From positions 34,263 to 98,262 of the forward strand of contig NZ_MKTR01000017.1 of the NCBI RefSeq assembly GCF_001898325.1: a stretch of DNA of 64,000 nt, in the 5' to 3' direction. The notes beneath the pieces were generated by a model that was given only the letters and a program-made list of their open reading frames with translations, was not told the origin of the DNA and ran no database searches. The DNA comes from Microbacterium sp. 67-17. Its GTDB lineage: Bacteria > Actinomycetota > Actinomycetes > Actinomycetales > Microbacteriaceae. Both the position numbers and the translations under genes were made by a program. This document shows, piece after piece, positions 1,007-40,116 of the stretch (within the stretch, counting starts at the first letter, position 1; each line of letters opens with the position of its first letter).

Positions 1007-1788
1007 GCGCCGTCGCCGCCGCGATCGACGCGGCCCGCGATGAAGGTCGCGGCGCTCTCATCGGATACCTCCCCATCGGCTATCCCGACCTGGAGACCAG
1101 CATCGAGGCCGCCGTGACGTTGGCCGAAGCCGGCGTCGACATCCTCGAACTCGGCCCGCCCTACTCAGACCCCGTTATGGACGGCCCGGTCATCCAGGAA
1201 GCCACCAACGCTGCGCTAGAAGCGGGCTTTCGGATGCGCGACACCTTCACCGCGGTCCGCGAGGTCGCTTCACGAACCGACATCCCCGTGCTCGTCATGA
1301 CGTACTGGAACCCTGTCGTGCAGTACGGGGTTTCCCGGTACGCCGACGACCTCCGCGCAGCCGGTGGCGCCGGGCTGATCACGCCCGACATCACCCCAGA
1401 CGCGGCAGCCGACTGGCTCGCCGAGAGCGCACGTACGGGCCTTGACCGGGTCTTTCTCGCCGCCCCGAGTTCGACCGACGCTCGACTCGAGATGATCGTG
1501 CGGGAAACCACCGGGTTCGTCTACACGGTCTCGACGATGGGTATCACGGGGGAGCGGGCCCAGTTGGATGCCGCAGCCCGTGCCCTTGTCGCGCGCCTCC
1601 GCGAGCACGGCGCCGAGCGCGCGTGCGTCGGAATCGGCGTCTCCAACGCCGACCACGTGCGGAGCGTCCTCGAGTACGCAGACGGAGCGATCGTCGGGAC
1701 GGCGCTCGTGCGCGCCCTGCGCGACGGGGGCCTCGACGGACTAGCTGCTGCCGCGCGCGAACTCGTCGCCGGCACCGTCCGCGAGTGA
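1003..1788 (+). CDS. trpA: tryptophan synthase alpha chain
   Basis: Cleaves indole-3-glycerol phosphate to indole, which channels to TrpB, and glyceraldehyde-3-phosphate. 261 residues, normal for the family. The catalytic glutamate lies in [11 protein letters not shown] and the catalytic aspartate in the following VMDGP. The phosphate-binding GIGVSN and GAIVGTALV segments are near the C-terminus. The GTG start overlaps the trpB stop; an upstream in-frame ATG at 970 lies inside trpB and is rejected. It is the last gene of the trp operon here, and lgt follows after 72 bp with its own promoter. Confidence 0.97.
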
Positions 1789-1805
1789 GCGCGCCCCACT
1801 CGAAC

Positions 1806-1811
1806 TAGACT
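1806..1811 (+). promoter_or_regulatory. -10 element TAGACT for lgt
   Basis: TAGACT lies in the 72-bp trpA-lgt gap and would start a transcript near 1818, giving a leader of about 43 nt. No clear -35 is visible. Same TAGNNT form as the other promoters of this window. Confidence 0.4.
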
Positions 1812-1860
1812 CACGACGTCGGCCCTCCGGCCGGCGCCCCACCAACCGAGGACGATCGAC

Positions 1861-2832
1861 ATGATCACCGCTTTCCAGAACGTCCTGACGAGCATCCCCA
1901 GTCCGAGTGTCAGCTACATCGACCTCGGGCCGCTGCGCATCCATTTCTACGCGTTGTGCATCATCGCCGGTATCATCGTCGCGGTCCTGCTCACGAACTA
2001 CCGCCTGACCAAGCGGGGTGCCGAAAACTGGATCGTCATCGACATCGCCCTGCTGGCGGTCCCGCTCGCGATCATCGTCGCCCGGATCTACCACGTCCTG
2101 ACCCACCCCGGCTTCTACTTCGGTGAAGGTGCCGACATCTGGGCCATCTTCCGCATCTGGGAGGGCGGCATCGCCATCTACGGAGCCCTCATCGGCGGAG
2201 CGATCGGTGCGTGGCTCGGATGCCGCTGGACCGGCATCCGATTCTGGTCATTCGCCGACGCATTGGCGCCAGGTCTGATCATCGCCCAGGCCATGGGACG
2301 CCTCGGCAACTGGTTCAACCACGAGCTGTTCGGTCTTCCCACAGACCTTCCCTGGGGCCTGGAGATCGAGTCCACCAACGCGGCCTTCCCTCCGGGCCTG
2401 GCCCCCGGCACACTCTTCCACCCCACGTTCCTCTACGAGATGATCTGGAACCTCCTGGGAGCTGCCGTACTGCTGTGGGCGGGCCGTCGTTTCGCGCTGC
2501 AATGGGGCCGCCTGTTCGGCCTCTACCTCATCTGGTACAGCGCGGGGCGCATCGTCTGGGAGTCCATCCGGATCGATCCGAGCGAGATCTTCCTCGGCAT
2601 CCGCGCGAACGTGTGGGCAGCGATCTTCGGCGTCATCATCGGCGCTGCGATCATGATCGTGCAGAAGCGCCGCCACCCCGGGCGGGAGCCCTCACCGTAC
2701 GTTCCCGGTCGCGAGCGCGCCGCGAAAGGCACTGTACAATCGCAGGACACTCCCGACTTCGTCGACGTCAGCGAACCACCGGCCCCCGAAGTCACCGCAG
2801 GCAGCGCCACAAGCACCCCTCGGCCGCAGTGA
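1861..2832 (+). CDS. lgt: prolipoprotein diacylglyceryl transferase
   Basis: Transfers diacylglycerol from phosphatidylglycerol to the lipobox cysteine of preprolipoproteins at the cytoplasmic membrane, the first lipoprotein maturation step. 323 residues with about seven hydrophobic segments. The Lgt signature GRLGNWFNHELFG is at about residues 145-157, and the early RIYHV segment contains the conserved histidine region. The last 50 residues are a hydrophilic tail, common in actinobacterial Lgt. The position after trpA matches trpA-lgt neighbourhoods in other actinobacteria. A substrate-type gene (FKBP lipoprotein, 34071-35033) and lnt (26754-28304) occur in the same window. Confidence 0.96.
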   Translation: MITAFQNVLTSIPSPSVSYIDLGPLRIHFYALCIIAGIIVAVLLTNYRLTKRGAENWIVIDIALLAVPLAIIVARIYHVLTHPGFYFGEGADIWAIFRIWEGGIAIYGALIGGAIGAWLGCRWTGIRFWSFADALAPGLIIAQAMGRLGNWFNHELFGLPTDLPWGLEIESTNAAFPPGLAPGTLFHPTFLYEMIWNLLGAAVLLWAGRRFALQWGRLFGLYLIWYSAGRIVWESIRIDPSEIFLGIRANVWAAIFGVIIGAAIMIVQKRRHPGREPSPYVPGRERAAKGTVQSQDTPDFVDVSEPPAPEVTAGSATSTPRPQ

Positions 2833-2841
2833 TCTGATCAC
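2829..2841. promoter_or_regulatory. 13-bp palindrome at the head of the gltB leader
   Basis: GTGATCtGATCAC is a perfect inverted repeat around one central base, overlapping the lgt stop and lying 87 bp before gltB. It could be an operator for the gltBD genes, but no known nitrogen-regulator box is matched and chance cannot be excluded. Confidence 0.2.
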
Positions 2842-2927
2842 CGGAGCAGTACCCAGATCACCGCGTACACCACACACAGCCGGGCCGACGTCGTCCCATC
2901 TTGAGCATCAACGTGAGGACGGTAGCA

Positions 2928-7500
<4,573 letters not shown>

Positions 7501-7508
<8 letters not shown>

Positions 7509-8967
7509 TCCCAAGGGCTTTCTGAAGGTTACGGAGCGGGAACTTCCCGCCCGTCGTCCGGTGCCTGTTCGCATCATGGACTGGAAAGAGGTCTACGAAC
7601 CCGGTGACAGTGCTGTGCTGCGCCGGCAGGCCGGACGCTGCATGGACTGCGGCATTCCGTTCTGCCACCAGGGATGCCCGCTCGGGAACCTCATCCCCGA
7701 GTGGAACGACCTCACGTGGCGCGGGGAGGGGCGCGCGGCGATCGATCGTCTGCATGCGACGAACAACTTCCCGGAGTTCACGGGTCGGCTCTGTCCCGCA
7801 CCGTGCGAGAGCGCCTGCGTGCTGGGCATCAACCAGCCGGCGGTGACGATCAAGCAGGTGGAGGTCTCGATCATCGATCAGGCCTTCGCGAACGGCTGGG
7901 TCGACCCCAAGCCGCCGGGGCGCTTGACCGGCAAGACCGTGGCTGTGGTCGGTTCAGGCCCCGCAGGTCTGGCAGCCGCACAGCAACTCACGCGCGCCGG
8001 TCACACCGTGGCCGTGTACGAGCGGGATGACCGCATCGGCGGTCTGCTGCGTTACGGCATCCCGGACTTCAAGATGGAAAAGCGCCACCTCGAGTCCCGG
8101 CTTCGTCAGATGCAGGACGAGGGAACCCGGTTCCGCGCCGGCGTCAATATCGGTACCGACATCACCTGGGACGCCCTGCGCGCCCGGTATGACGCTGTCG
8201 TCGTCGCGACCGGGGCAACAGTTCCGCGTGACCTCCCCATCCCCGGACGCGACCTCGCCGGGGTTCACTTCGCGATGGAGTACCTCGTCGAGTCGAACCA
8301 CGCTGTCGCAGGGGATGCCGTCGCCAATCAGATCAGTGCCGAGGGCAAGCACGTCATCGTGATCGGTGGCGGCGACACCGGTGCTGACTGCATCGGAACC
8401 GCCCACCGCCAGGGCGCGCTGAGCGTCACGAACCTCGCGATCGGACGTCGCCCTCCCGAGGCACGCCCTGACGCGCAGCCCTGGCCGATGGCCCCGACCC
8501 TGTTCGAGGTGCAGTCCGCTCACGAGGAAGGCGGGGAGCGGATGTATCTGGCCTCCACCGTCGAGTTCCTGGGCAACGACGCCGGCGAAGTTCAGTACCT
8601 TCGTGTCGCCGAGACCGAGTTCGTGGATGGCCGGCGCGTCCCGAAAAGCGGCACGGAGCGCGAGATCCCGGCAGACCTCGTTCTCATCGCCATGGGCTTC
8701 ACCGGCCCCGAGCGACTTCTCCTCGAGGACCAGCTCGGTACCAGATTCACCGATCGCGGCAACGTTGCCCGTGAGGACGATTACCAGACGACGCATCCGG
8801 GGGTGTTCGTTGCCGGTGACGCCGGCCGCGGTCAGTCCCTCATCGTCTGGGCGATCGCCGAAGGACGCGCGGCCGCTGCAGCGGTGGACCGGTATCTGAT
8901 GGGTGACACGGAGCTTCCGTCTCCTGTTCACCCCACGGATGTCGCCATCGGCGTGGCGCACGCGTAG
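7501..8967 (+). CDS. gltD: glutamate synthase small subunit
   Basis: NADPH-oxidising flavoprotein that passes electrons through Fe-S clusters to GltB. 488 residues. The N-terminal 4Fe-4S region contains [14 protein letters not shown] and [14 protein letters not shown]-binding [10 protein letters not shown] lies near residue 148 and NADPH-binding [13 protein letters not shown] near residue 290. The C-terminal [14 protein letters not shown] closes the second FAD contact. The GTG start lies inside the gltB end with GGAGG 6 nt upstream, so the pair is translationally coupled. The TAG stop doubles as the start of the TAGGCT -10 element for pyk. Confidence 0.97.
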
Positions 8968-8970
8968 GCT
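8965..8970 (+). promoter_or_regulatory. -10 element TAGGCT for pyk
   Basis: TAGGCT begins with the TAG stop codon of gltD. The transcript would start near 8977, leaving a leader of about 60 nt before the pyk ATG. Confidence 0.45.
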
Positions 8971-9037
8971 GGGCCCGGCCCCTGCCTGTACCCGCAGGCC
9001 TTCTGCCTGCATCACGCAAACAACGGAGCACACTCGG

Positions 9038-10486
9038 ATGAGACGCGCGAAGATCGTCGCAACCTTGGGCCCGGCAACCTCGACATACGAGATGGTTCGC
9101 GCCATCATCGATGCCGGCGTTGACGTTGCCCGCTTCAACCTTTCCCACGGCGACTACTCGGTACACGAGAACAATTTCGCCAATGTCCGCAAGGCCGCAG
9201 ACGACGCACAGCGCGCCGTCGCGGTCCTCGTGGATCTGCAGGGACCCAAGATCCGTCTCGGAAAGTTCGAGAACGGACCTCACGAGCTCGCGCCCGGAGA
9301 CATCTTCAAGATCACCATCGAGGACATCCTCGGCACGAAGGACATTGTCTCGACGACGTTCAAGGGTCTGCCTGCTGACGTGAAACCGGGCGACTTCCTG
9401 CTCATCGACGACGGCAAGGTTCGTGTCAAGGTCATCGAGACAGACGGAACAGTCGTCACGACCGAAGTCATCGTCGGTGGTCCGGTGTCCAACAACAAGG
9501 GCATCAACCTTCCCGGGGTCGCGGTCAACGTTCCCGCCCTCTCCGACAAGGACGAGGCAGACCTCCGCTGGGGTCTGCGTACCGGCGCCGATCTGATCGC
9601 GCTGTCGTTCGTCAGGGATGCCAAGGACGTGCAGCGTGTTCACGTGATCATGGCCGAGGAGGGCCGTCGGGTTCCGGTCATCGCCAAGATCGAGAAGCCG
9701 CAGGCCGTCGACAACCTCGAGGAGATCATCGACGCCTTCGACGGCATCATGGTCGCCCGTGGCGACCTCGGCGTGGAGCTTCCGCTGGAAGCCGTTCCGA
9801 TCGTGCAGAAGCGCGCAGTAGAGCTGTGCCGCGCGATGGCCAAGCCGGTCATCGTCGCCACGCAGATGCTCGAGTCGATGATCAACAACCCGGTTCCCAC
9901 GCGTGCCGAGACCAGTGACGTCGCCAACGCCGTTCTGGATGGTGCCGATGCCGTCATGCTCTCGGGCGAGACGAGTGTGGGGGAGTACCCCGTTGTCGTC
10001 GTACAGACGATGGCCCGCATCATCGAGTCGACGGAAGAACACGGACTCGAGCGCATCGCTCCGATTCACACGAAGCCGCGCACGCAGGGGGGCATCATCA
10101 CGCTCGCGGCCAACGAGGTCGCTGACTTCGTCGAGGCGAAGTTCCTGTGTGTGTTCACGGAGTCGGGAAACTCGGCTCGCCGTCTGTCGCGCCTGCGGCC
10201 GAAGATCCCCATGCTCGCTTTCGCCCCCGACCCGGCGATCCGCCGCCGCATGGCAGTGACGTGGGGCATCCAGTCGACCCTGGTCGAGCACGTCTCGCAC
10301 ACCGACCGGATGTTCCTCCAGGTCGATGACTACCTTCTCTCGAATGACCTGGCAAAGGTCGGTGACAAGGTCGTCGTGATCTCGGGTTCTCCTCCCGGAA
10401 TCGAGGGCACGACCAACGACATCCGCATCCACAACGTGGGCGATGCGGTTCACGGCAAGGCTCCCGCATACCAGAACGCAGGCTGA
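9038..10486 (+). CDS. pyk: pyruvate kinase
   Basis: Last step of glycolysis, phosphoenolpyruvate plus ADP to pyruvate plus ATP. 482 residues, normal. The start is the ATG at 9038 (MRRAKIVATLGPA) with GGAG 9 nt upstream; an in-frame ATG at 8903 lies within gltD and is not used. Visible motifs are RFNLSHG, DLQGPKIRLG, the active-site IAKIEKP, the metal/substrate segment MVARGDLGVELP and KPVIVATQMLESM. The C-terminal domain includes FTESGNSARRLS, which carries the regulatory-site type signature. It ends in a strong hairpin at 10500-10542. Confidence 0.97.
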   Translation: MRRAKIVATLGPATSTYEMVRAIIDAGVDVARFNLSHGDYSVHENNFANVRKAADDAQRAVAVLVDLQGPKIRLGKFENGPHELAPGDIFKITIEDILGTKDIVSTTFKGLPADVKPGDFLLIDDGKVRVKVIETDGTVVTTEVIVGGPVSNNKGINLPGVAVNVPALSDKDEADLRWGLRTGADLIALSFVRDAKDVQRVHVIMAEEGRRVPVIAKIEKPQAVDNLEEIIDAFDGIMVARGDLGVELPLEAVPIVQKRAVELCRAMAKPVIVATQMLESMINNPVPTRAETSDVANAVLDGADAVMLSGETSVGEYPVVVVQTMARIIESTEEHGLERIAPIHTKPRTQGGIITLAANEVADFVEAKFLCVFTESGNSARRLSRLRPKIPMLAFAPDPAIRRRMAVTWGIQSTLVEHVSHTDRMFLQVDDYLLSNDLAKVGDKVVVISGSPPGIEGTTNDIRIHNVGDAVHGKAPAYQNAG

Positions 10487-10499
10487 CACTCGCTTCGCA

Positions 10500-10542
10500 C
10501 GAAACGGTCGCACTCGGCACTAGGCTGAGCGCGACCGTTTCG
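10500..10542 (+). terminator. pyk terminator hairpin
   Basis: Arms CGAAACGGTCGC (10500-10511) and GCGACCGTTTCG (10531-10542) are perfect complements around a 19-nt loop. No U-tract follows. The loop contains the TAGGCT promoter element of the next gene. Confidence 0.7.
10521..10526 (+). promoter_or_regulatory. -10 element TAGGCT inside the terminator loop
   Basis: TAGGCT sits in the loop of the pyk terminator. A transcript would start at about 10533, within the descending arm, and so lack the full hairpin. Confidence 0.45.
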
Positions 10543-10557
10543 CATTCGGAGGTAGCC

Positions 10558-10947
10558 GTGCTCGGCATCTGGGACATTTTCTTGTTCGCGCTCGTGATGT
10601 TCTACATCGCCGCGTACATCTACGTCGTCGCGCTGATCATCATCGATCTGTTTCGCGACCACACGCTGGCAGGCGGCTGGAAGGCGCTCTGGATCATCTT
10701 CCTGGTCCTCGTGCCCTTCTTGACGGCTCTCGTGTACGTGATCGCCCGAGGACGCGGGATGGCAGCTCGTGCGAGCATCCGGCGCGGCGTCGTTCCCGAA
10801 ACCGACGACTACCGTCCTGCCGCTGCCGCTAACCCGACTGCCGAGATCGAGCGCGCCAAGGCCCTGCTGGATGCCGGCACCATCTCGCAGGGCGAGTTCG
10901 ACGCGCTCAAGAGCAAAGCACTCGGGAACCAGTTCTTCGGAGCCTGA
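10558..10947 (+). CDS. small membrane protein with PLDc_N and SHOCT domains
   Basis: 129 residues. Two membrane helices (about residues 5-30 and 41-64) form a phospholipase D N-terminal-type (PLDc_N) module, without any catalytic PLD domain. The C-terminal 35 residues (AEIERAKALLDAGTISQGEFDALKSK region) are a SHOCT domain, a short motif often found at protein ends and thought to mediate oligomerisation. GTG start with GGAGG about 5 nt upstream. No enzymatic role can be assigned. The same architecture is common in actinobacteria as an uncharacterised membrane protein. Confidence 0.85.
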   Translation: MLGIWDIFLFALVMFYIAAYIYVVALIIIDLFRDHTLAGGWKALWIIFLVLVPFLTALVYVIARGRGMAARASIRRGVVPETDDYRPAAAANPTAEIERAKALLDAGTISQGEFDALKSKALGNQFFGA

Positions 10948-10948
10948 G

Positions 10949-11045
10949 CCACCGTGTGCTCTTCCCAAGCCGCGCCATCGTGACGTGATGAAGGCCGCAA
11001 CCCTGACGGGTCGCGGCCTTCATCACGTGCCGGTGGTGGGAGTCG
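10949..11045. repeat. 97-bp direct repeat, copy 1 (carries a tRNA-Leu 3' end)
   Basis: Identical over 97 bp to 11108-11204, offset 159 bp. It includes the terminator-like palindrome (10984-11027) and the last 18 bases of the tRNA-Leu(CAA) gene on the - strand. Beyond the identical part a damaged T-arm can still be seen, with arms GTGGG and CCCAC but loop GACGACT instead of TTCGACT. This copy is therefore a partial, decayed tRNA duplicate. The 62 bp between copies are GC-rich, with no gene. Confidence 0.9.
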
Positions 11046-11107
11046 TCCCCACGGCCACTCCACGCGCCGCTCCGCAGCGCGCGGAGCCTCCGGCCGCGTG
11101 GGCCCAC

Positions 11108-11204
11108 CCACCGTGTGCTCTTCCCAAGCCGCGCCATCGTGACGTGATGAAGGCCGCAACCCTGACGGGTCGCGGCCTTCATCACGTGCCGGTGGTGGGA
11201 GTCG
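11108..11204. repeat. 97-bp direct repeat, copy 2 (attached to the intact tRNA-Leu)
   Basis: Second copy of the repeat at 10949-11045. It runs from upstream spacer through the hairpin at 11143-11186 into the 3' end of the complete tRNA gene, ending within its T-arm. Confidence 0.9.
11143..11186 (-). terminator. terminator-like hairpin after tRNA-Leu(CAA)
   Basis: Fifteen-bp perfect arms beginning CGTGATGAAGGCCGC, with a further ACCC/GGGT pairing inside. It lies directly downstream of the - strand tRNA, has no U-tract, and is duplicated exactly at 10984-11027, where it would also face the end of the gene at 10558-10947. Confidence 0.65.
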
Positions 11205-11269
11205 AACCCACACGCCCTTTCGGGCAACCGATTTTGAGTCGGTCGCGTCTGCCATTCCGCCACACCGGC
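11187..11269 (-). tRNA. tRNA-Leu (anticodon CAA)
   Basis: 83 nt. Acceptor GCCGGTG pairs with CACCGGC, with discriminator A and no encoded CCA. Anticodon stem ACCGA/TCGGT holds loop CTCAAAA, giving anticodon CAA (reads UUG). A long variable arm and T-arm GTGGG-TTCGACT-CCCAC fit class II leucine tRNA. Confidence 0.95.
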
Positions 11270-11295
11270 CGGGGACGTCCGCATTGACCATACCG

Positions 11296-11301
11296 TAGGA
11301 T
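11296..11301 (+). promoter_or_regulatory. leaderless -10 element TAGGAT for pdtaR
   Basis: TAGGAT is followed by 6 nt and then the GTG start, so transcription should begin at or next to the start codon. Confidence 0.6.
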
Positions 11302-11307
11302 TCAAAG

Positions 11308-11928
11308 GTGACAGAGCAAGAGCAGGCAGCAGCCTCCGCCGCCAACACCCCCCGCCGTGTCGTCGTAGCCGAAGATGAGTCCCTCATCCGACTCGACATC
11401 GTCGAAATCCTTCGCGACAACGGGTTCGATGTCGTCGGCGAAGCCGGGGACGGCGAGAGCGCGGTTCAGCTGGCCACGGAGCTGCGTCCTGACCTGGTCA
11501 TCATGGACGTCAAGATGCCCCAGCTCGATGGCATCTCCGCCGCCGAGAAGCTCAACAAGAACAACATCGCGCCGGTCGTCCTGTTGACCGCGTTCAGCCA
11601 GAAGGAACTCGTTGAGCGTGCGAGCGAGGCTGGTGCTCTCGCTTATGTGGTGAAGCCCTTCACCCCGAACGATCTGCTTCCGGCGATCGAAATCGCCCTC
11701 GCCCGCCACGAGCAGATCCTCACCCTCGAGGCAGAGGTTGCCGACATGGTGGAGCGGTTCGAGACCCGCAAGCTCGTGGATCGCGCCAAGGGACTGCTCA
11801 ACGAGAAGATGGGCCTGTCCGAACCTGAGGCGTTCCGGTGGATTCAGAAGGCATCGATGGACCGCCGGCTCACGATGCAAGACGTCGCCAAGGCGATCAT
11901 CGAGCAGCTGGCGCCGAAGAAGGCCTGA
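11308..11928 (+). CDS. pdtaR: ANTAR-domain response regulator (PdtaR-like)
   Basis: RNA-binding antitermination response regulator of a two-component pair; no partner kinase is adjacent. 206 residues. The receiver domain (about 17-135) has the acidic pocket AEDE, phospho-acceptor aspartate in VIMDVKMP, LLTAFS and the lysine of YVVKPF. The ANTAR domain at about 140-202 (RKLVDRAKGLLNEKMGLSE, then QDVAKAI) is the RNA-binding three-helix module. The position between pyk and polA matches pdtaR (Rv1626) in mycobacteria, although that gene's regulon cannot be assumed here. Confidence 0.92.
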   Translation: MTEQEQAAASAANTPRRVVVAEDESLIRLDIVEILRDNGFDVVGEAGDGESAVQLATELRPDLVIMDVKMPQLDGISAAEKLNKNNIAPVVLLTAFSQKELVERASEAGALAYVVKPFTPNDLLPAIEIALARHEQILTLEAEVADMVERFETRKLVDRAKGLLNEKMGLSEPEAFRWIQKASMDRRLTMQDVAKAIIEQLAPKKA

Positions 11929-11994
11929 GGCCTCGGCGTCGGTCGGCCGGCAGCTGCACTCCCGCGTCGCATCGGTTCACGCGCGAAAGTTGGC

Positions 11995-12450
11995 TCATCC
12001 CTCGGGGCGCGTGAGCTCCTCGGGGAGCGGAACATCCTTGATGAGGTTCGTGATGCGGATGGTGGAGCATCGTCGCCCCTCGTCGTCGGAGACGACGATC
12101 TCGTGAACTGTCATGCTTCGCCCGAGGTGCACGGGGGTGCACACGCCTGTCACCAGACCCGAGCGGGCGGATCGCGTATGGGTCGCGTTGATATCGACAC
12201 CGACAGCGAGGCGGCCCGGGCCCGCCCACAGATTCGCAGACATCGACCCCAGGGACTCGCCCAACACGACGTATGCGCCGCCGTGCATGAGGCCCACTGG
12301 CTGCGTGTTGCCCTCAACGGGCATGGTCGCAACGGAACGTTCAACCGTGAACTCGAGGAACTGCATCCCCATCTTCTCGGCGAGGGTCCCCATGCCGCGC
12401 TGCGCCGCCCACTCCATGCCATTGACGTTCACCGGATGCTGCGTGCTCAT
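11995..12450 (-). CDS. PaaI-type hotdog thioesterase
   Basis: 151 residues with the hotdog fold pattern: central helix segment MHGGAYVVLGESLGSM and the following AVGVDINATHTRSARSG strand region typical of PaaI/YbgC-like acyl-CoA thioesterases. Substrate unknown. Start taken at ATG 12450 (MSTQHP); an in-frame GTG lies two codons upstream. It is transcribed away from polA, whose leaderless promoter lies only about 40 bp from this start. It converges on pdtaR with 66 bp between stops, and no strong hairpin is seen there. Confidence 0.85.
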   Translation of the reverse strand: MSTQHPVNVNGMEWAAQRGMGTLAEKMGMQFLEFTVERSVATMPVEGNTQPVGLMHGGAYVVLGESLGSMSANLWAGPGRLAVGVDINATHTRSARSGLVTGVCTPVHLGRSMTVHEIVVSDDEGRRCSTIRITNLIKDVPLPEELTRPEG

Positions 12451-12488
12451 GACCACCCTCGGGGAGAAGTGCTGTCGGAAGCCGTGGG

Positions 12489-12494
12489 TAGGCT
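12489..12494 (+). promoter_or_regulatory. leaderless -10 element TAGGCT for polA
   Basis: TAGGCT, 6 nt, then the GTG start of polA. Confidence 0.6.
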
Positions 12495-12500
12495 GACAGA

Positions 12501-15149
12501 GTGACGGACTCCTCGAAGCCTACCCTCCTGGTCGTCGACGGCCACTCGCTGGCCTTTCGGGCGTTTTTCGCCCTCCCCGTCGAGAACTTCACCACCAAGG
12601 ACGGTCAGCACACGAACGGGATCTACGGGTTCCTGTCGATGTTTGTGAACCTGGTCAAGGCCGAGAAGCCCACGCATGTCGCTGTAGCTTTCGACACTTC
12701 GCGCCAGTCGTTCCGTACCCGTGAGTACGCGGAATACAAGGCGAACCGTGCCGAGACCCCGAAGGAGTTCCAGGGCCAGATCCCCCTGCTGCAGGACTGC
12801 CTCCGGGCCATGAACATCACGGTGCTCCAGCAAGAAGACATCGAAGCCGACGACATCCTCGCCACTCTGGCGACCCGGGGCGCGGATGCCGGGTATCACG
12901 TGCTCGTCTGCTCGGGTGACCGCGACACGATTCAGCTCGTGGATGAGCGCATCACACTGCTCTACCCAAGTGTGCAGGGGGTGTCCCAACTCAAGCGGTA
13001 CGACCCTGAAGCGGTACGCGAGCGTTACGGCGTTTCGCCTGAGCAGTACCCCGACATCGCGGCTCTGGTCGGCGAGACCAGCGACAATCTCCCCGGCGTC
13101 CCCAAGGTGGGGGAGAAGACGGCGGTGAAGTGGCTGACCCAGTTCGGCACCCTTGAAGACCTGCTCGAGAACGCCGACCGTGTCACGGGAGTGGTGGGCA
13201 ACAACCTGCGCGAGCACCTCGATGACGTCAAGCGCAACCGCGCGCTGAATCGGCTCTTGCGCGACGTCGAGCTGCCGGTCGGCCCCGACGAGCTAGCTGT
13301 CACCGGTATGGATGCACAGGGCGTTCGCGACATCTTCGCGCGGCTGGAGTTTCGTACCCTGCTGCCGCGCGTGTTCGAGGCCTTTGGCGGCGAGGAACCC
13401 GCGGATGCAGCGCGGGCGGTGCATCTGCCGGTTGCCACAGAGGCGAACTCCGATGCTGTGGCTGCGTGGCTGGCAGGCGGCGTCGGCGAGGTCGCGGTGA
13501 CTGTCGTTCCAAGCGCAGGCGCGGCGAGTTCGGCATCCCTCCCGACCCGTGTGGGGTTCGCGCGCGAAGCCGATGTTGTCGAAACCAGCTGGACGACAGA
13601 GTCGGCGGCCCACCTCTCGGGCTGGTTCGCGTCCGATAGCCCGAAAGTTTTCGCCGACGCCAAGGCCCAGATCAAGATGCTGCGTCGTGCGGGCGTCACC
13701 GTCGGGGGTGTCGCGTTCGACACTGCGTTGGCCGGGTGGCTTCTTCGTCCGAGCTTCCCCGACAAGACACTCGCAGATCTCGTCGACCGCTACCTGGGAG
13801 AGAAGCTCCCTGAGGCCGATCCGACGCAGCTGATTCCCGAAACCGAGGGCGCCACTCCCGGACAGCTGTCGTGGTTCACGCTGCGGGTCGCGAACGCGCT
13901 TCGGGCTGAACTGCCGGATGACCTCGCCGGCGTGCTCCGCGAGATCGAGCTTCCGACCCTCGACGCGCTCGTCGACATGGAGCTGGACGGGGTGGCAGTT
14001 TCGCACGAGACGCTTGCCGCGTTCTCGGCAGAACTCGGCGCCCGCGCCGATGCGATCGCCGCCGAAGCTTTCGACACAATCGGTCGCGAGGTCAACCTCG
14101 GGTCCCCGAAGCAGCTCCAGGAGGTGCTCTTCGAAGAGCTGGGACTCCCCAAGACCCGCAAGACGAAGACCGGCTACTCGACGGATGCCGCGGTTCTGGC
14201 CGACCTGCAAGAGACCAATCCGCATCCGTTCCTTGGTCTGCTCCTCCAGCATCGCGAGGCGACCAAGCTCAGGCAGATCATCGAGTCGCTGGATGCCGCG
14301 ATCGGCACCGACGGCCGAATCCACACAACCTACGTGCAGACGGGGAGCCAAACGGGGCGCCTCTCGAGCACCGACCCCAATCTGCAGAACATCCCCATCC
14401 GGACCGAAGACAGCCGCCGTATCCGTTCGGCATTCGTTGTCGGCGCCGGGTATGAAACCCTCCTGACCGCCGACTACTCGCAAATCGAAATGCGCATCAT
14501 GGCGCACCTGTCGGAGGACCCCGGGCTCATCGAGGCCTTCAATTCGGGTGAGGATCTGCATCGCTTCGTCGGCGCGCGCGTGTTCGGTGTGGACCCCGCC
14601 GATGTCACCCCGCAGATGCGCACGAAGGTCAAAGCCATGTCGTACGGCCTCGTCTACGGCCTCTCTGCCTTCGGGCTGTCCAAGCAGCTGCGCATCGAAC
14701 AAGCCGAGGCCAAGCAGCTCATGATGGAGTACTTCGCGCGATTCGGCGCGGTGCGCGACTACCTGCGCGCTTCTGTCGAGAAGGCTCGGATAGACGGGTA
14801 CACCGAGACGATCTTCGGTCGCCGCCGCCCCTTCCCAGACCTCACCAGCCCGAACCGCGTTCTGCGCGAGAATGCCGAACGCGCTGCGCTCAACGCACCC
14901 ATCCAGGGCAGCGCTGCCGACATCATGAAGATCGCGCTGTTCCGCATCCACCAAGACCTCCGCGACAGCGATCTGCGTTCGCGGGTGTTGCTGCAGATCC
15001 ACGACGAGCTCGTTGTCGAAGTCGCGCCGGGGGAGTGGGACCGGGTCGAAGAGATCGTCAGGCAGAGGATGGCTGACGCGGCGACCCTGTCCGTGCCGTT
15101 GGATGTCGAAGTGGGCCGCGGCGGCGATTGGAATCTCGCCGGGCACTGA
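12501..15149 (+). CDS. polA: DNA polymerase I
   Basis: Gap-filling and primer-removal polymerase. 882 residues. The N-terminal 5'-nuclease domain (about 1-290) shows VVDGHSLAFRAFF, VAFD and VGETSDNLPGVPKVG. The middle domain (about 310-490) lacks the DxE and other carboxylates of a proofreading 3'-5' exonuclease, as is usual for actinobacterial PolA. The polymerase domain carries motif A DYSQIEMRIMAH, motif B RTKVKAMSYGLVYGLS and motif C QIHDELVVE. No intein. GTG start directly at the predicted transcript end. Confidence 0.97.
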   Translation: MTDSSKPTLLVVDGHSLAFRAFFALPVENFTTKDGQHTNGIYGFLSMFVNLVKAEKPTHVAVAFDTSRQSFRTREYAEYKANRAETPKEFQGQIPLLQDCLRAMNITVLQQEDIEADDILATLATRGADAGYHVLVCSGDRDTIQLVDERITLLYPSVQGVSQLKRYDPEAVRERYGVSPEQYPDIAALVGETSDNLPGVPKVGEKTAVKWLTQFGTLEDLLENADRVTGVVGNNLREHLDDVKRNRALNRLLRDVELPVGPDELAVTGMDAQGVRDIFARLEFRTLLPRVFEAFGGEEPADAARAVHLPVATEANSDAVAAWLAGGVGEVAVTVVPSAGAASSASLPTRVGFAREADVVETSWTTESAAHLSGWFASDSPKVFADAKAQIKMLRRAGVTVGGVAFDTALAGWLLRPSFPDKTLADLVDRYLGEKLPEADPTQLIPETEGATPGQLSWFTLRVANALRAELPDDLAGVLREIELPTLDALVDMELDGVAVSHETLAAFSAELGARADAIAAEAFDTIGREVNLGSPKQLQEVLFEELGLPKTRKTKTGYSTDAAVLADLQETNPHPFLGLLLQHREATKLRQIIESLDAAIGTDGRIHTTYVQTGSQTGRLSSTDPNLQNIPIRTEDSRRIRSAFVVGAGYETLLTADYSQIEMRIMAHLSEDPGLIEAFNSGEDLHRFVGARVFGVDPADVTPQMRTKVKAMSYGLVYGLSAFGLSKQLRIEQAEAKQLMMEYFARFGAVRDYLRASVEKARIDGYTETIFGRRRPFPDLTSPNRVLRENAERAALNAPIQGSAADIMKIALFRIHQDLRDSDLRSRVLLQIHDELVVEVAPGEWDRVEEIVRQRMADAATLSVPLDVEVGRGGDWNLAGH

Positions 15150-15163
15150 CCGCTCGTTCTGGT

Positions 15164-15169
15164 TAGGCT
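15164..15169 (+). promoter_or_regulatory. leaderless -10 element TAGGCT for the DUF885 gene
   Basis: TAGGCT, 7 nt, then ATG at 15177. Confidence 0.6.
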
Positions 15170-15176
15170 CGAACGC

Positions 15177-16850
15177 ATGACTGAAGCTCCTCGATCTGCC
15201 ACGCCCATCGACGCGATCGCAGATGCGTGGGTCGACACGCTCGCGGAGCGTGTCCCCACCCTCGCCACCTACATCGGTCGCTCCGAGCACAATGCACGCT
15301 ACGGCGACTATTCTCCAGCTGGCGTTGACGCACTCGCCGACGAAGCCCGCACGACGCTCGCTGCGCTGCGCACCACCGAGCCCGTGGACGACATCGATCG
15401 CGTCACGAAAGCAGACCTTACCCGCGAGCTGGAACTCGACCTCGAACTCCACGACGCCCAGTGGCATCTTCGCGACCTGAACGTGATCGCCTCGCCGCCG
15501 CAGGACATCCGCGCGGTCTTCGACCTCATGCCCACCGACACGGCGGAGGACTGGTCTGTCATCGCGACGCGACTGGGAGCGGTCCCAGAGGCGGTACGCG
15601 GCTACATCGAAACCCTCCGAGCCGGAGTCTCAGCTGGGGTCGTACCCGCCAGGCGGCAGGTGCGCGAAGTCGTGACCCAGATCGGGCGCTACACGAGCGA
15701 CCGCGGCTTCTTCGCGGAGTTCGCCGCCGAGGCCGCACCCAACGACGGGCAGCTTCCGGCATCCCTCGCCCGTGAGCTCGCCGACGCAGCGGGCGCTGCC
15801 CGCGTGGCGTACGAAGAGCTCGCCGATGTTCTCTCCGCCGAGGTCGGCCCTGCCGCTTCCGAGCAGGACGGCGTCGGCCGGGACCTGTACGCGCTGCACT
15901 CACGGCGCTTCCTCGGTGCGACCATCGACCTCGATGAAACCTACGAGTGGGGCATCGAAGAGCTCGCGCGCATGGTCGCCGAGCAGGAACAGATCGCCGA
16001 CGAGATCCTTTCCGGCGCGAGCGTCGAGGCGGCTGTCGCGTTCCTCGAGAGAGATACCTCGCGAAAGCTTCACGGTACCGAGGCGCTGCAAACGTGGATG
16101 CAGCAGACGAGCGATCATGCCGTGGCAGAGCTCGGGAAGACGCACTTCGACATCCCCGAACCGATCCGCACGCTCGAGTGCATGATCGCGCCCACCAAGG
16201 AGGGCGGGATCTACTACACCGGCCCGACCGATGACTTCTCGCGCCCCGGGCGCATGTGGTGGTCGGTTCCGGAGGGCGTCGAGGACTTCGACACGTGGCG
16301 AGAACTGACGACCGTGTATCACGAGGGCGTTCCCGGTCACCACCTGCAGATCGCTCAGGCCGTCTACAACCGCGCACAACTCAACTCGTGGCGGCGTCTG
16401 CTGGCCGGTACGTCGGGCCACGCGGAGGGGTGGGCGCTGTACGCGGAGCGCCTCATGGAGCAGCTCGGCTACCTGGATGACCCCGCGGACCGGCTCGGCA
16501 TGCTCGACGGGCAGCGGATGCGGGCAGCGCGCGTCGTGTTGGATATCGGCGTCCACCTCGGCAAGCCCCGCTTGGACGGCGAAGGCGTATGGGACCACGA
16601 CTACGCCCTCGCCTTCATGCGCCGCAACGTCAACATGTCGGACGAGTTCATTCAATTCGAGGTCAACCGCTACCTCGGCTGGCCCGGGCAGGCTCCGTCC
16701 TACAAGGTGGGTCAGCGCATCTGGGAACAGTTGCGAGACACCGTTGCCGAGCAACAGGGCGACGCGTTCGACATCAAGGCGTTTCACAAGCGCGCGCTCG
16801 ACATCGGCGGAGTTGGGCTCGACACGCTACGTGCGGCGTTGCTGATCTGA
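15177..16850 (+). CDS. DUF885 family protein, probable metallopeptidase
   Basis: 557 residues, the usual length of DUF885 proteins. The signature VYHEGVPGHHLQIAQ at about residues 380-394 resembles a zinc-peptidase HExxH-like active site, with a downstream glutamate in SGHAEGWALYAERL as third ligand candidate. No signal peptide, so cytoplasmic. Substrate unknown. It follows polA by 27 bp, but its own leaderless promoter suggests independent transcription. Annotated relatives are only loosely characterised, so the peptidase role is inference from motif. Confidence 0.85.
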   Translation: MTEAPRSATPIDAIADAWVDTLAERVPTLATYIGRSEHNARYGDYSPAGVDALADEARTTLAALRTTEPVDDIDRVTKADLTRELELDLELHDAQWHLRDLNVIASPPQDIRAVFDLMPTDTAEDWSVIATRLGAVPEAVRGYIETLRAGVSAGVVPARRQVREVVTQIGRYTSDRGFFAEFAAEAAPNDGQLPASLARELADAAGAARVAYEELADVLSAEVGPAASEQDGVGRDLYALHSRRFLGATIDLDETYEWGIEELARMVAEQEQIADEILSGASVEAAVAFLERDTSRKLHGTEALQTWMQQTSDHAVAELGKTHFDIPEPIRTLECMIAPTKEGGIYYTGPTDDFSRPGRMWWSVPEGVEDFDTWRELTTVYHEGVPGHHLQIAQAVYNRAQLNSWRRLLAGTSGHAEGWALYAERLMEQLGYLDDPADRLGMLDGQRMRAARVVLDIGVHLGKPRLDGEGVWDHDYALAFMRRNVNMSDEFIQFEVNRYLGWPGQAPSYKVGQRIWEQLRDTVAEQQGDAFDIKAFHKRALDIGGVGLDTLRAALLI

Positions 16851-16910
16851 GGAATGGAATAGGGACCGGACCCGTATGGTTCTATGCACATGCATGGAAA
16901 GGATGCCGTC

Positions 16911-17975
16911 ATGATTCAGTTCGGTCTCGATACCTTCGGTGATGTCACGGTCGATGAGAGCGGAGCGCCCCTCTCTGACGCACAGACGCTGCGCAATCTT
17001 GTCGACCAGGCTGTGCTCGCCGACGAACTCGGCATCTCGTTCATCGGCGTCGGCGAGCACCATCGGCCCGACTTCGCGGTGTCGAGCCCCGAGATCGTGC
17101 TCGCGGCCATCGCCGGGCGGACCCGCGACATCCACCTCGGCACTGCCGTGACGGTTCTCTCGTCAGACGATCCGGTGCGGGTCTACGAGCGGTTCGCGAC
17201 CCTGGATGCCGTCTCGAACGCTCGCGCCGAGGTGGTACTGGGCCGCGGGAGCTTCATCGAGTCCTTCCCCCTGTTCGGGTACGACCTGAAGGATTACGAG
17301 GCCCTGTTCGAGGAGAAGCTCGAACTGTTCTCCCTCTTGCGCCAGGAGCGCCCGGTCACCTGGTCCGGAACCACCCGCGCCGCGCTCACTAGTGCTGACG
17401 TGTACCCGAAGACCGAGGGATCCGGCCTCATGACCTGGGTGGGCGTCGGAGGGTCACCCGAATCCGTCGTCCGGACAGCGCGGTACGGCTTCGGCCTCAT
17501 GCTCGCGATCATCGGCGGACCCGCTGAGCGCTTCGCACCCTATGTTGAGCTCTTCCATCGTTCGCTGGCCTCCTTTGGACACGATCGCAAGCCGGTCGGC
17601 GTCCACTCGCCGGGTCACATCGCCGATACCGATGAGCAGGCGTGGGAACAGGCGTATCCTGCGTTTGAAGCGATGAACAACCGTATCGGAGCCGAACGCG
17701 GGTGGCCGCCCTACAGTCGGATGCGGTTCCAGCACGACGTCGGAGCCGGGGGAGCGGTTTACTCGGGGTCACCCGACCGGGTTGCTCGCAAGATCGCCGA
17801 CACCGTGTTGACGCTGGGGATCGACCGTTTCGATCTGAAGTACTCGAACGGCACGCTCGGACACGAGCAGCTGATGCGCTCGATCGAGCTCTACGGCACC
17901 AGGGTGATCCCGATGGCGCGCGAGATGATCGCGGAAGGCGCAGACCGGCAGCGCGATGAGGCACCCGTAGGCTAG
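16911..17975 (+). CDS. LLM-class flavin-dependent oxidoreductase
   Basis: 354 residues of the luciferase-like monooxygenase fold, e.g. VGEHHRPDFAVSSPE near the N-terminus and ARAEVVLGRGSF. It probably uses reduced FMN or F420; substrate unknown. ATG at 16911 is preferred over 16884 because GAAAGGA is correctly placed upstream of it. The last codons contain the TAGGCT promoter element of the SGNH gene that follows 4 bp later. Confidence 0.88.
   Translation: MIQFGLDTFGDVTVDESGAPLSDAQTLRNLVDQAVLADELGISFIGVGEHHRPDFAVSSPEIVLAAIAGRTRDIHLGTAVTVLSSDDPVRVYERFATLDAVSNARAEVVLGRGSFIESFPLFGYDLKDYEALFEEKLELFSLLRQERPVTWSGTTRAALTSADVYPKTEGSGLMTWVGVGGSPESVVRTARYGFGLMLAIIGGPAERFAPYVELFHRSLASFGHDRKPVGVHSPGHIADTDEQAWEQAYPAFEAMNNRIGAERGWPPYSRMRFQHDVGAGGAVYSGSPDRVARKIADTVLTLGIDRFDLKYSNGTLGHEQLMRSIELYGTRVIPMAREMIAEGADRQRDEAPVG
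17968..17973 (+). promoter_or_regulatory. leaderless -10 element TAGGCT for the first SGNH hydrolase
   Basis: TAGGCT inside the end of the oxidoreductase gene, 6 nt before the GTG at 17980. Confidence 0.55.
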
Positions 17976-17979
17976 GGGA

Positions 17980-18744
17980 GTGCAGGAGATCCGCTACGTT
18001 GCCATCGGTGATTCCTTCTCCGAAGGCGTCGGCGACGAGCTGCCTGACGGCACCGTCCGGGGGTGGGCAGACCTCACCGCTCTCGGCTGGGCCAACGCAC
18101 TCGGTGCTCCGATCGCGTATGCGAACTTCGCCATCCGCGGCAAGCTTGCGTGGCCCATCGTGGAAGAGCAACTGGAGCCGGCCCTCGCTCTCCGTCCGAC
18201 CCACCTCTCGTTCAACGGGGGAGGCAACGACATGCTGCGACCCCGCACGACGATCGAGAGCATCGCGGACGCCTTCAGCACCGTCCTGCGCCGGTGCGAT
18301 GAGGAAGGGGTCCGTCTGGTTCTGCTCTCGGGCGCCAACCCCTCAGCCCAGCTGCCGTTCCGGTCGCTGATCCAACGCCGCGGAGACGACCTCTCGCGAG
18401 CAGTAGTGGCACGAGTCACCGACCGTCCCGATGTTGTCCGGGCCCTCAACTGGCCGGATCGCGAGCTGTCGCATCCGTCGTTCTGGTCTGCCGACAGGCT
18501 GCACATGAACTCGCGCGGGCACCACCGGGTGGCTGCGCGCCTCCTCGGCGCCCTGGGCCACCCCGCACCAGGGGAGTGGTGGTCGATGCCCGAGCAGTCC
18601 ACCGCCGACGCGGTGCGTGGTTTGGCCTACTATCGCGCGCACGTCGGCCCATGGGTTCGTCGACGACTGACAGGCACGTCGTCGGGTGACGGCCGGATGC
18701 CGAAGTTCGGGAATTGGGTGACGATCGAGCCCGCTGGAGCCTGA
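17980..18744 (+). CDS. SGNH/GDSL family hydrolase
   Basis: 254 residues. Catalytic blocks are AIGDSFSEGVGD (nucleophile serine), the oxyanion glycine region, FNGGGNDMLRP (asparagine block) and SADRLHMNSRGHH (Asp-His). Cytoplasmic, no signal peptide. Likely an esterase or lipase, substrate unknown. It is a paralogue of the gene at 47182-48030; both share the GDSF start, the GGND block, the RLHxNxxGHH end and a basic WV-RRRL type tail. GTG start. Confidence 0.88.
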   Translation: MQEIRYVAIGDSFSEGVGDELPDGTVRGWADLTALGWANALGAPIAYANFAIRGKLAWPIVEEQLEPALALRPTHLSFNGGGNDMLRPRTTIESIADAFSTVLRRCDEEGVRLVLLSGANPSAQLPFRSLIQRRGDDLSRAVVARVTDRPDVVRALNWPDRELSHPSFWSADRLHMNSRGHHRVAARLLGALGHPAPGEWWSMPEQSTADAVRGLAYYRAHVGPWVRRRLTGTSSGDGRMPKFGNWVTIEPAGA

Positions 18745-18776
18745 GCTGGTCTATCGTGGGGCACAAGGGGGTGGCG

Positions 18777-18944
18777 ATGATGACGTTCTGGAACCGGGTG
18801 ACTCGCCTCTTCGTTCGCAAGCCCGTCTCGTTCTCCGAGGCGAAAGAAGGCCGCGAAGCGCAGGAAGCTGTTGATCGAGCGCGGGCTGCCGCTCAGCATC
18901 AGTTCCAAGACAGAACCGTGCGCAACAGCGGCTGGTTCACGTGA
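18777..18944 (+). CDS. small basic/amphipathic protein, function unknown
   Basis: 55 residues starting MMTFWNRVTRLF, followed by a charged helix rich in Glu, Ala and Arg (about 18-42). No known domain recognised. A TATCGT -10-like hexamer lies about 20 bp upstream and AAGGGGG precedes the ATG pair at 18777/18780, so expression is plausible. It sits between the SGNH gene and the convergent D,D-carboxypeptidase. The 93 bp after it hold nothing recognisable. Confidence 0.5.
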   Translation: MMTFWNRVTRLFVRKPVSFSEAKEGREAQEAVDRARAAAQHQFQDRTVRNSGWFT

Positions 18945-19037
18945 CTCCGCCCGGATGAGGCCATATGCCAGATCCGGAATCTAGTGTCAAGGCGCTCTGG
19001 GTGACCACGGTGAGCTGCGCGCCGACTGGTGCCGAGT

Positions 19038-20384
19038 TCAGCCCGCGACGAGCTCCGTAGGGTGTGTCAGTCGCCACCAGTCGGTCGGCGGATCGATTGA
19101 CTCGGTCACGATGAGCTCAGCGCTCTCGCTGTGCGGACCGGCTGTCCAGGTGATCAGACCCACGACGTCGCCGGTCGCGAACTCGATCGGGTTGTCCATC
19201 GTAACCTCGACCGCGATCGGCGTGTCAGACCACGTGAAGATGTCGACGTCGCGCGCGATCACAACCTCCGTGGTTCCACCCCACGGTGCCGTGACGGTGC
19301 CGATGTGGTCGCCTGCCAGTCCGACAGGGACGTCGTGGAACCCGCGGCGGATGCTGTCGAGCATGCGAAGCACATCAGCATTGGCTGACTCCCGCGTCGC
19401 GCCGCCCTGGATTGCGCCTGTGACATCCAGGTGCATGCCTGCGATGTCCAAGCCCGCTGTGAACACCAACGCGTAGGTCCCGTACCCGAGGTTGCCGGTC
19501 TTCATCCCCGTTACTCCGTCGACGCCCAGCAAGGCGTTGGTGTTCTGCAGCGATCCAGGCCCCGGGATCGTGAGCGAGGCTGTTCCGACGATCGACGCGA
19601 GGGTCGGGTTTGCGGCGGCAAGCTTTGCGATAGCGACCAGATCAGTGGGCGTGCTGACATTCGCGGAGTCGAGCCCCGTGGGTTCGACGACCGTCGTGCC
19701 GGCCAGACCATGGGCCTGGAGCCAGTCGCTGGCCGCCGCGCGGAAGCTGGATACCGAGCCGAACGCCCACCGACTGATGGCCTCGGCGTAGTTGCTCGCC
19801 GAGGGGATCAACATCGTGGCCAGCGCATCGTGCAGCGACATCCGTGTGCCCGTGGGCATTGCCGCGATCGTCGCTCCACGAACGTAGTACTGATCGTAGA
19901 GATCGTGGTCGGCTTTCGAGAACGTGATCGTCGGGCCGGGATCGGATGCGTCCGCGAGCGGGTACTTCTCAAGTACGACGAGTGCCGTGATGATCTTGCT
20001 GACGCTCGCCATGACCTGCGGATCCTGGGGACCGGACGTCTGCCAGATTCCACTCGCGCCCTCGCCGAGATACACGTCCCCGCCTGACACGCTCAGTGCT
20101 GAAGAGCCGAAAGACGGAAGCGAGATCTGAGCTGCAACGGGAGACTCGACGGTCGGCGTCTGCCACTCCAGCGTCGCGGCAGGCAGGGGAGTGTTCAGCG
20201 CCCAGGCGACGTACCCGCCCGTCGCCACCATCCCGACAACCATCACGATGGCGATCACGAGACCCGTGATGCGCAGCGCCCGCGAGGGACCGTTGGTGGC
20301 GACAAACGCGTCGTCGTCCGAGTCCGGGGTCATGAGGTCAGCGATCGTGACCTGTTCGTCGGCGTCCGGGGGAGGAGTGGTCAT
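19038..20384 (-). CDS. membrane-anchored D-alanyl-D-alanine carboxypeptidase (peptidase S11)
   Basis: Trims the terminal D-Ala from peptidoglycan stem peptides outside the membrane. 448 residues from ATG 20384 (MTTPPP). An acidic cytoplasmic head of about 40 residues is followed by one membrane segment (about 36-60). The penicillin-binding domain has SxxK as SVSK, SxN as SASN and KTG as MKTGNLG. A C-terminal beta domain follows. The upstream in-frame ATG at 20414 is less likely. Its promoter region faces the dif site. Confidence 0.92.
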   Translation of the reverse strand: MTTPPPDADEQVTIADLMTPDSDDDAFVATNGPSRALRITGLVIAIVMVVGMVATGGYVAWALNTPLPAATLEWQTPTVESPVAAQISLPSFGSSALSVSGGDVYLGEGASGIWQTSGPQDPQVMASVSKIITALVVLEKYPLADASDPGPTITFSKADHDLYDQYYVRGATIAAMPTGTRMSLHDALATMLIPSASNYAEAISRWAFGSVSSFRAAASDWLQAHGLAGTTVVEPTGLDSANVSTPTDLVAIAKLAAANPTLASIVGTASLTIPGPGSLQNTNALLGVDGVTGMKTGNLGYGTYALVFTAGLDIAGMHLDVTGAIQGGATRESANADVLRMLDSIRRGFHDVPVGLAGDHIGTVTAPWGGTTEVVIARDVDIFTWSDTPIAVEVTMDNPIEFATGDVVGLITWTAGPHSESAELIVTESIDPPTDWWRLTHPTELVAG

Positions 20385-20582
20385 GACAGCCGACCCTTGG
20401 CGCTCACCGCGCAACCAGGCCAGGCACGATCATCTGAACCGACACGTCCCCGCATCCGACACGCCCTCCGCGTCACGCACCACACCCGATAGAACGAGGC
20501 TAACCCGGGAGCCCAGCGAGCACGAGCGCTGCCAGGCCAGGAGAGCGGGCTTAGTCTCGAGCGGCATGGTCAGTTCAGACCG

Positions 20583-20610
20583 AGCTGACATAATGTGCAT
20601 TATCGGCGAC
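20583..20610. other. dif: candidate chromosome dimer resolution site dif
   Basis: In the 285-bp gap 20385-20669. Read on the - strand it has an 11-bp XerC-like arm GTCGCCGATAA, a 6-bp centre TGCACA and an 11-bp XerD-like arm TTATGTCAGCT. This is the same 11-6-11 layout as E. coli dif (arms GGTGCGCATAA and TTATGTTAAAT) and carries the GATAA/TTATGTCA core expected for actinobacterial dif. It is an AT-rich island in GC-rich DNA, not inside a gene, at a place where the dominant coding strand changes. No other gene-like content is seen in this gap. Confidence 0.85.
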
Positions 20611-20657
20611 TATCCACGATGGCTCGGTTGTAACCGAGCCGACGCAGTCTGGCTCGT

Positions 20658-20669: not shown

Positions 20670-21311
20670 ATGCGGCGGCGAAACCTGACGTGGACGATCG
20701 GTGGCAGCGCACTGATCCTGGCCGGTATCGTCGCGATGCTGGACGCCGTCATGCTCGGCTCTTCTCTACGTCCGGTTCTCACTGTGATCGCCGAGCTTGC
20801 TTGGGCCGTCGGCGTCACCGTGTTCGCCGTTGGACGAACGAGGTACGAAAGCATCGTCGCGCGCAGACCTATGGGTCTCGTCACGATGCTGATCGTGGCG
20901 TGGTGGCATGTCGTCGCCCGCATCGTCTTCGACGTGATGACACCGAACGGCGGCTTCGCCACACCAGATTCGATTCCGCCAATGTACGTCGTCCTGGGTT
21001 ACCTCGACCTGTTGATACCGCTCGCTGCCGGGACCATCGCGACCGTCCAGATCGCGCGGACCCGCATCGTTCCGTCTCCGTGGCGGTGGGCGCCGCTCTG
21101 GGTTCTCGGACTGAGCGTCCTCGTGGGCGTCATGACCCAGGGCATGTACGCGACCATGGCACTCCCGCAGCAGGCCGTCGCCGACGTTGCAACACTCGTC
21201 GGCGCACTGTCGAGCCTTGCGAGCACAATAGGACTCGGCGTCCTCGCGCTCATCCTCAGCGAACGCGGCCGCGCCGAAAGCGTCCACATCTTCCGCTCCG
21301 GCCACCCGTAG
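20670..21311 (+). CDS. six-helix integral membrane protein, function unknown
   Basis: 213 residues with about six hydrophobic segments (roughly 8-30, 33-52, 68-90, 106-124, 137-158, 170-200). No catalytic or transport motif recognised. The first gene to the right of dif, on its own leaderless promoter. The 76 bp to the next start hold that gene's promoter. Confidence 0.75.
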   Translation: MRRRNLTWTIGGSALILAGIVAMLDAVMLGSSLRPVLTVIAELAWAVGVTVFAVGRTRYESIVARRPMGLVTMLIVAWWHVVARIVFDVMTPNGGFATPDSIPPMYVVLGYLDLLIPLAAGTIATVQIARTRIVPSPWRWAPLWVLGLSVLVGVMTQGMYATMALPQQAVADVATLVGALSSLASTIGLGVLALILSERGRAESVHIFRSGHP

Positions 21312-40115: not shown

Positions 40116-40116
40116 C
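40095..40116 (+). repeat. left attachment repeat (tRNA side)
   Basis: The 3' part of the tRNA-Leu T-arm and acceptor stem, from GTTCAAGT to CTCGCGCAC. Repeated at 43153-43174 with C replaced by G at the ninth base. Confidence 0.85.

Follow-up and report, generated by a model that had tools for sequence, protein, structure and literature searches.

Joined copies of a circular chromosome are separated before cell division at dif, a site that also marks the endpoint of segregation. The DNA analyzed here, a stretch of 64,000 nucleotides from a Microbacterium genome that we refer to as the window, contains a 28-bp sequence in an intergenic gap at 20583–20610 (minus strand), and we asked whether this sequence is the chromosomal dif or a site with another function. 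The initial annotation had called it a probable dif site. Its single copy in the genome, its conservation, its position opposite dnaA in closed relatives, the presence of Xer and FtsK genes, and a polar motif, GGGGGAG, whose orientation reverses at the site all support this call, and we conclude that the 28-mer is almost certainly the dif of this Microbacterium chromosome, where XerCD would bind and recombine. As a type of feature, dif is ordinary and well known.

Sequence, layout, and conservation of the 28-mer

Read on the minus strand, the 28-mer (GTCGCCGATAATGCACATTATGTCAGCT) consists of GTCGCCGATAA TGCACA TTATGTCAGCT, which are the letters previously assigned to it; on the plus strand the sequence is AGCTGACATAATGTGCATTATCGGCGAC. 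We take the left arm, GTCGCCGATAA (20600–20610, minus strand), to be, by analogy with E. coli, a putative XerC half-site and the right arm, TTATGTCAGCT (20583–20593, minus strand), to be a putative XerD half-site, placed on either side of the central region TGCACA (20594–20599, minus strand). When folded on each other, the arms agree at just 5 of 11 positions, so the 11-6-11 layout, which had been described as exact, rests on the conserved inner arm bases, the 6-bp center, and the E. coli analogy, and not on symmetry. The 28-mer had also been described as AT-rich, and with a G+C content of 13/28 (46%, counted by hand) vs ∼65% in the surrounding DNA, this is true relative to its surroundings but not in absolute terms. 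The site falls within a 255-bp gap between an ORF at 19038–20414 (minus strand), which matched Pfam Peptidase_S11 (E 1e-15) and is the D-Ala-D-Ala carboxypeptidase that the initial annotation had named, and an ORF at 20670–21311 (plus strand), labeled there as a membrane protein, for which a Pfam search returned no match.

The 28-mer was the sole match at ≤3 mismatches in the window, and none of 100 shuffles had any. Across the entire draft (3,139,230 bases on 35 contigs) there was again one match at ≤3 mismatches, in agreement with the single copy that had been predicted, and the core, CGATAATNNACATTATGTCA, searched at the same tolerance, was found at this place alone. This core has 18 specified bases, among them CGATAA in the left arm and TTATGTCA in the right arm, while the two middle bases of the central region were left free in the search pattern. 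An exact match, one per genome, was present in 56 of 59 genus genomes (the present genome counted), and as a control, the reversed pattern gave 0 matches across the same 59 genomes. Three genus genomes did not have the exact core: G014 carried one copy with one mismatch, the final A of the central region being replaced by C, and no core was found at ≤3 mismatches in G023 (83% complete) or G030 (77% complete). At ≤2 mismatches, the core was present in 112/120 family genomes, 51/59 order genomes, 97/118 class genomes (with one extra free base), and 28/100 phylum genomes; the reversed control at ≤2 mismatches matched 0, 1, 1, and 2 genomes, respectively. The class genomes without a site numbered 21, and 7 of these belong to one family (f21), with genomes of 7 to 10 Mb.

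We compared 40 genus sites column by column, namely the window and 39 of the 56 other site-bearing genus genomes (G014 included). Because the picking script demanded the core, most of the invariant columns among these sites are invariant by selection. At the free columns, column 5, the C that precedes CGATAA in the left arm, was C in 40/40 sites, column 13 was G in 40/40, and column 14 was C in 35 and T in 5. The outer four bases of the left arm (columns 1–4) and the three final bases of the right arm (columns 26–28) varied. Among the 56 exact genus matches, the middle bases of the central region were GC or GT in 55, and CC only in G019, a genome outside the 40 sites, which therefore has C at column 13. 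The flanks of the genus sites were mutually dissimilar as judged by eye, and in M. schleiferi (locus L232) the dif core is unchanged while the sequence to one side of it aligns at 71%. Thus, dif is conserved across relatives regardless of the neighboring genes. On the other side of the M. schleiferi dif lies a stretch of ∼1.1 kb (∼2813–3930 of L232) that is missing from the window; it holds ORFs at 3543–3917 and 2884–3558 (both minus strand), which by eye look like an ArsR-type regulator and a cation-diffusion transporter.

The E. coli dif/XerCD/FtsK system shares with this genome the site layout, the inner arm bases, and genes for XerC, XerD, and an FtsK gamma domain, and the E. coli dif has 19/28 bases in common with the Microbacterium dif. 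The resemblance to actinobacterial dif sites, which the initial annotation had suggested, was borne out by the Frankia alni dif: 24/28 bases are the same, positions 3 to 25 (23 bases) being identical and all four differences lying at the ends, and the actinobacterial site is likewise 28 bp long, present once per chromosome and near the antipode of the origin (PMC3025954). A Corynebacterium genome paper (PMC2830990) also cites an actinobacterial dif consensus, that of Hendrickson and Lawrence 2007.

Chromosomal position and GC skew

We located DnaA in 21 genomes, counting the present one. In 17 relatives, comprising 15 single-contig assemblies and two near-complete ones whose main contig holds both loci (G001 and G005), dif lies at 0.375–0.540 of the chromosome from dnaA, with a mean of 0.473. 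A third such draft, G022, which is outside the 17, gave a fraction of 0.508, and in G018 and G050 dif and dnaA fell on separate contigs. In the genome under study, dif is on contig 17 and dnaA is on contig 34. The strand of dif was that of dnaA in 13/17 relatives and the opposite one in 4 (G004, G015, G034, and G052), a mixed pattern of the kind that inversions spanning the terminus would give.

A turn in GC skew near dif is usual and not strictly needed. In the 40 genus genomes, mean GC skew went from +0.027 in the 9.9 kb before dif to −0.014 in the 9.9 kb after it, and skew fell across dif in 39/40; the sole exception was the window (10.6–30.6 kb). Here, skew was negative on both sides (−0.028 to the left and −0.013 to the right) and the cumulative curve dropped straight through dif, with none of the extreme that had been expected at this position. 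Along the closed chromosome of G034, which we sampled in 20 stretches of 20 kb plus a separate stretch centered on dif, skew was positive in 6/10 left-arm stretches and negative in 8/9 right-arm stretches. We rejected GC skew as a terminus locator, as it fails in the window and is weak along G034. Since skew in the window has no turn at dif, GC skew alone leaves the terminus unplaced, and it is GGGGGAG that places it. The site fixes the segregation terminus of this Microbacterium genome; a marker-frequency study reports that dif and the point of replication termination sometimes differ (PMC13342612).

Polarity of GGGGGAG and its candidate reader

A word scan of the 40 genus regions, taken within 9.9 kb of dif, gave the 7-mer GGGGGAG as the top dif-pointing word, with 465 copies directed toward dif and 6 directed away. 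The best z was 17.2 with a sign reversal at dif vs 7.3 (for an 8-mer) in a control with no reversal. Copies directed toward dif outnumbered those directed away in 40/40 genomes, 34 of which had no misoriented copy at all, and in the pooled data misoriented copies were fewest (6) when the switch was set between −400 and 0 bp relative to dif. Density was 0.85–1.05 per kb at 0.5–3 kb from dif vs 0.33–0.45 per kb at 6–9.9 kb, and the motif was almost missing from the 0.5 kb next to dif on its XerC side.

All 26 copies in the window aim at dif. The left array (1548–20374, plus strand) comprises 8 copies, starting at 1548, 3215, 9979, 13109, 15029, 17748, 18217, and 20368, with no minus-strand copy among them. 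The right array (22333–61138, minus strand; CTCCCCC on the plus strand) comprises 18 copies, the first at 22333 and the last at 61132, with no plus-strand copy, and the switch in orientation thus lies between 20374 and 22333. Farther left on this contig, 20.8 to 26.0 kb before the window start, lie three additional copies, all dif-directed. In the sampled stretches of G034, the left arm (10 stretches) had 51 copies with the expected direction and 3 against it, and the right arm (9 stretches) had 43 and 2; the stretch starting at dnaA showed the reverse trend (1 with, 3 against), and the separate dif-centered stretch had 6 and 6. We also sampled 20 kb from the interval separating dif from the antipode of dnaA in three genomes where dif is off-center; the copies there (0/6, 6/0, and 0/5 on the plus/minus strand) pointed to dif.

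Architecture imparting sequences (AIMS) are oligomers that favor one strand, switch strands at the terminus, and grow denser toward it, and by its strand bias, its reversal, and its density GGGGGAG is an AIMS. In being G-rich, dif-directed, denser near dif, and reversing there, it resembles the E. coli KOPS and the B. subtilis SRS but differs from both in sequence. We tried each of these as the polar motif and rejected them: the KOPS, GGGNAGGG, whose consensus the Microbacterium motif does not match, was weakly polar (95 toward and 45 away in 40 genomes), and the SRS, GAGAAGGG, had 40 toward and 10 away. Ribosome-binding sites were likewise rejected as the cause of GGGGGAG, as just 3 copies precede a called start on their own strand by ≤15 nt.

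The bias could also reflect leading-strand mutation or coding bias with no protein reading the motif. GGGGGAG is indeed rich in G, as, slightly, are leading strands in the pooled genus data; dif-ward genes cover 393 kb vs 261 kb for opposite genes; and several words sharing just part of the motif are also skewed (e.g., TGGGGG, 269/73). However, the polarity held irrespective of gene direction, with 237/4 copies toward/away in dif-ward genes, 131/1 in opposite genes, and 97/1 in intergenic DNA (genes were called by a simple script, covering 83% of bases). Most single-letter changes to the motif lost the majority of the bias, those that best kept it being AGGGGAG (123/3), GGGAGAG (145/22), GGGGGAT (76/13), and GGGGGAC (51/10). 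Moreover, GGGGGAG was present on both strands of the 39 relatives' regions 465 times, a count separate from the 465 copies directed toward dif, vs 172.5 expected from dinucleotides. We therefore consider it improbable that GGGGGAG is polar for want of any reader, an alternative that concerns the motif only.

Beyond the genus, GGGGGAG was directed toward dif in the family (all 224 copies across 20 of 112 site-bearing genomes; lowest 3/0), in the order (189 toward and 3 away in 16 of 51 site-bearing genomes), and in 24 genomes of the class and phylum (170 toward and 8 away; 20 of these genomes came from searching the class and 4 from searching the phylum), where 4 of the 24 regions had one side shortened by a contig end. 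The weaker cases were three genomes of family f70 (13/1, 6/3, and 7/2), G336 (7/1), and G412 (9/1). The six f22 genomes had merely 2 to 5 copies each, with 0 away, and G243, the only genome from outside the class, had zero.

We do not present this polarity as a novelty. Corynebacterium genome papers find dif by way of the AIMS G(A/T/C)GGGGGA and (T/C)GGGGGAG, citing Hendrickson and Lawrence 2006 (PMC2830990; PMC3164646; PMC3219685), and since published Corynebacterium octamers contain the 7-mer, GGGGGAG is known as an AIMS. The Corynebacterium sequence is the same G-rich leading-strand motif put to the same use; C. aurimucosum is reported to have 856 copies on the leading strand and 61 on the lagging strand (PMC2830990), or 856/917 octamers over a whole chromosome, which is not an equivalent measure to the 465/471 found here for the 7-mer near dif. 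What our analysis adds is a close landmark for the terminus and a measure of the strictness and reach of the actinobacterial motif. As a landmark, GGGGGAG is sharper than GC skew, a signal that is weak across the genus and misleads in the window, and the polarity of the motif can be used to orient contigs and to check actinomycete assemblies.

A KOPS is a sequence that is bound by the FtsK gamma domain and that orients FtsK, and FtsK likely reads GGGGGAG as its KOPS. The FtsK gamma model PF09397 scored above its cut-off in the present genome, and in 11/11 and then 30/30 genomes searched. One helix of this domain, which is presumably among the KOPS-binding parts, reads GFAKAGRLMD in 40/41 genomes and GFARAGRLMD in 1/41; in the FtsK chains of known structure from Pseudomonas (2j5o and 2ve8), the aligned helix is GYNRAARMIE. 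KOPS is bound by the ends of helices 2 and 3 plus their loop, according to PMC5052618. On balance, we favor the reading that GGGGGAG, and more weakly AGGGGAG, is the FtsK-orienting sequence in most of the actinomycete class, that its reader is a gamma domain with a near-frozen DNA-facing helix unlike that of the solved chains, and that its polarity is near-absolute along whole chromosome arms. Among the literature matches listed, none tied GGGGGAG to FtsK, and we make no claim that such a link is unpublished. The reader of the actinobacterial AIMS is now directly testable with purified FtsK gamma.

The present genome also encodes XerD, which scored 338 bits against TIGR02225 and so passes the curated cut-off. 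Another recombinase matched the XerC model best (TIGR02224, 294.5 bits, below the curated cut-off of 335 bits) and is, to judge by this match, probably XerC. In the mechanism that we propose, XerC and XerD would bind the two arms of dif, and FtsK at the division septum would take its orientation from GGGGGAG, aimed at dif on both chromosome arms and read by its gamma domain. FtsK would then pump DNA up to XerCD-dif and activate XerD, which would resolve chromosome dimers to monomers by recombination.

Neighboring sequences and other readings of the site

We also considered that the 28-mer might not be the chromosomal dif but belong to an integrated element or a plasmid, as a Xer site for IMEX-type attachment or plasmid resolution. 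Sites of this general type do exist in the family: some family genomes have extra, weaker dif-like sites, and identical ones, CGATAATGTACCTTATGTCA, are found on secondary contigs in two family genera (G166:C2:38789–38808 and G084:C4:51897–51916), where they are possibly plasmid Xer sites. In addition, a short remnant of a tyrosine recombinase lies ∼20 kb off in the window. Against such an origin, the 28-mer is single-copy in its genome, the same core is found once in 56/59 genus genomes amid varying flanks, and the polarity of GGGGGAG flips at the 28-mer, and we regard an element or plasmid site as very unlikely. Still less credible is the idea that divergent promoters here share an operator for a transcription factor or a near-palindrome that arose by chance. 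Although the ORFs on either side are divergent and a perfect inverted repeat lies 10 bp away, the core is conserved without these neighbors. The repeat is missing in M. schleiferi, which keeps the dif core, and none of the 39 genus genomes compared with the window has it within 150 bp of dif in either direction, L040 having just one of its arms. We therefore retain the reading of the 28-mer as chromosomal dif.

The inverted repeat, a perfect 9-bp repeat of the form GGCTCGGTT-GT-AACCGAGCC at 20621–20640, is perhaps the operator of the ORF at 20670. There is also a direct repeat, in which 20624–20643 is related to 20570–20589, the latter overlapping dif by 7 bases. We rejected these flanking repeats as Xer accessory sites because, among the 40 genus genomes, none but the window has the inverted repeat intact, and M. 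schleiferi does not keep it.

The recombinase remnant (40243–40371) is a 72-aa frame that corresponds to positions 237–278 of the XerD model and lies on the opposite strand just past a tRNA-Leu (gag) at 40031–40116; together, the two look like the scar of a tRNA-integrated element.

Relatives of the carboxypeptidase were found at 11 loci (9 Microbacterium and 2 Frigoribacterium), in keeping with the Microbacterium origin of the window; the best relative, at 98% identity, is from a Microbacterium metagenome bin, followed by that of M. schleiferi, 91% identical over residues 85–456. Gene neighborhood was rejected as a guide to dif, the dif pattern being present at 1 of these 11 loci (L232) in the DNA examined, where the sequence of L231 stops short of the expected dif place. 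On the carboxypeptidase side of dif, the window also carries the gene for DNA polymerase I (polA, 12501–15149), ∼5 kb from the site.
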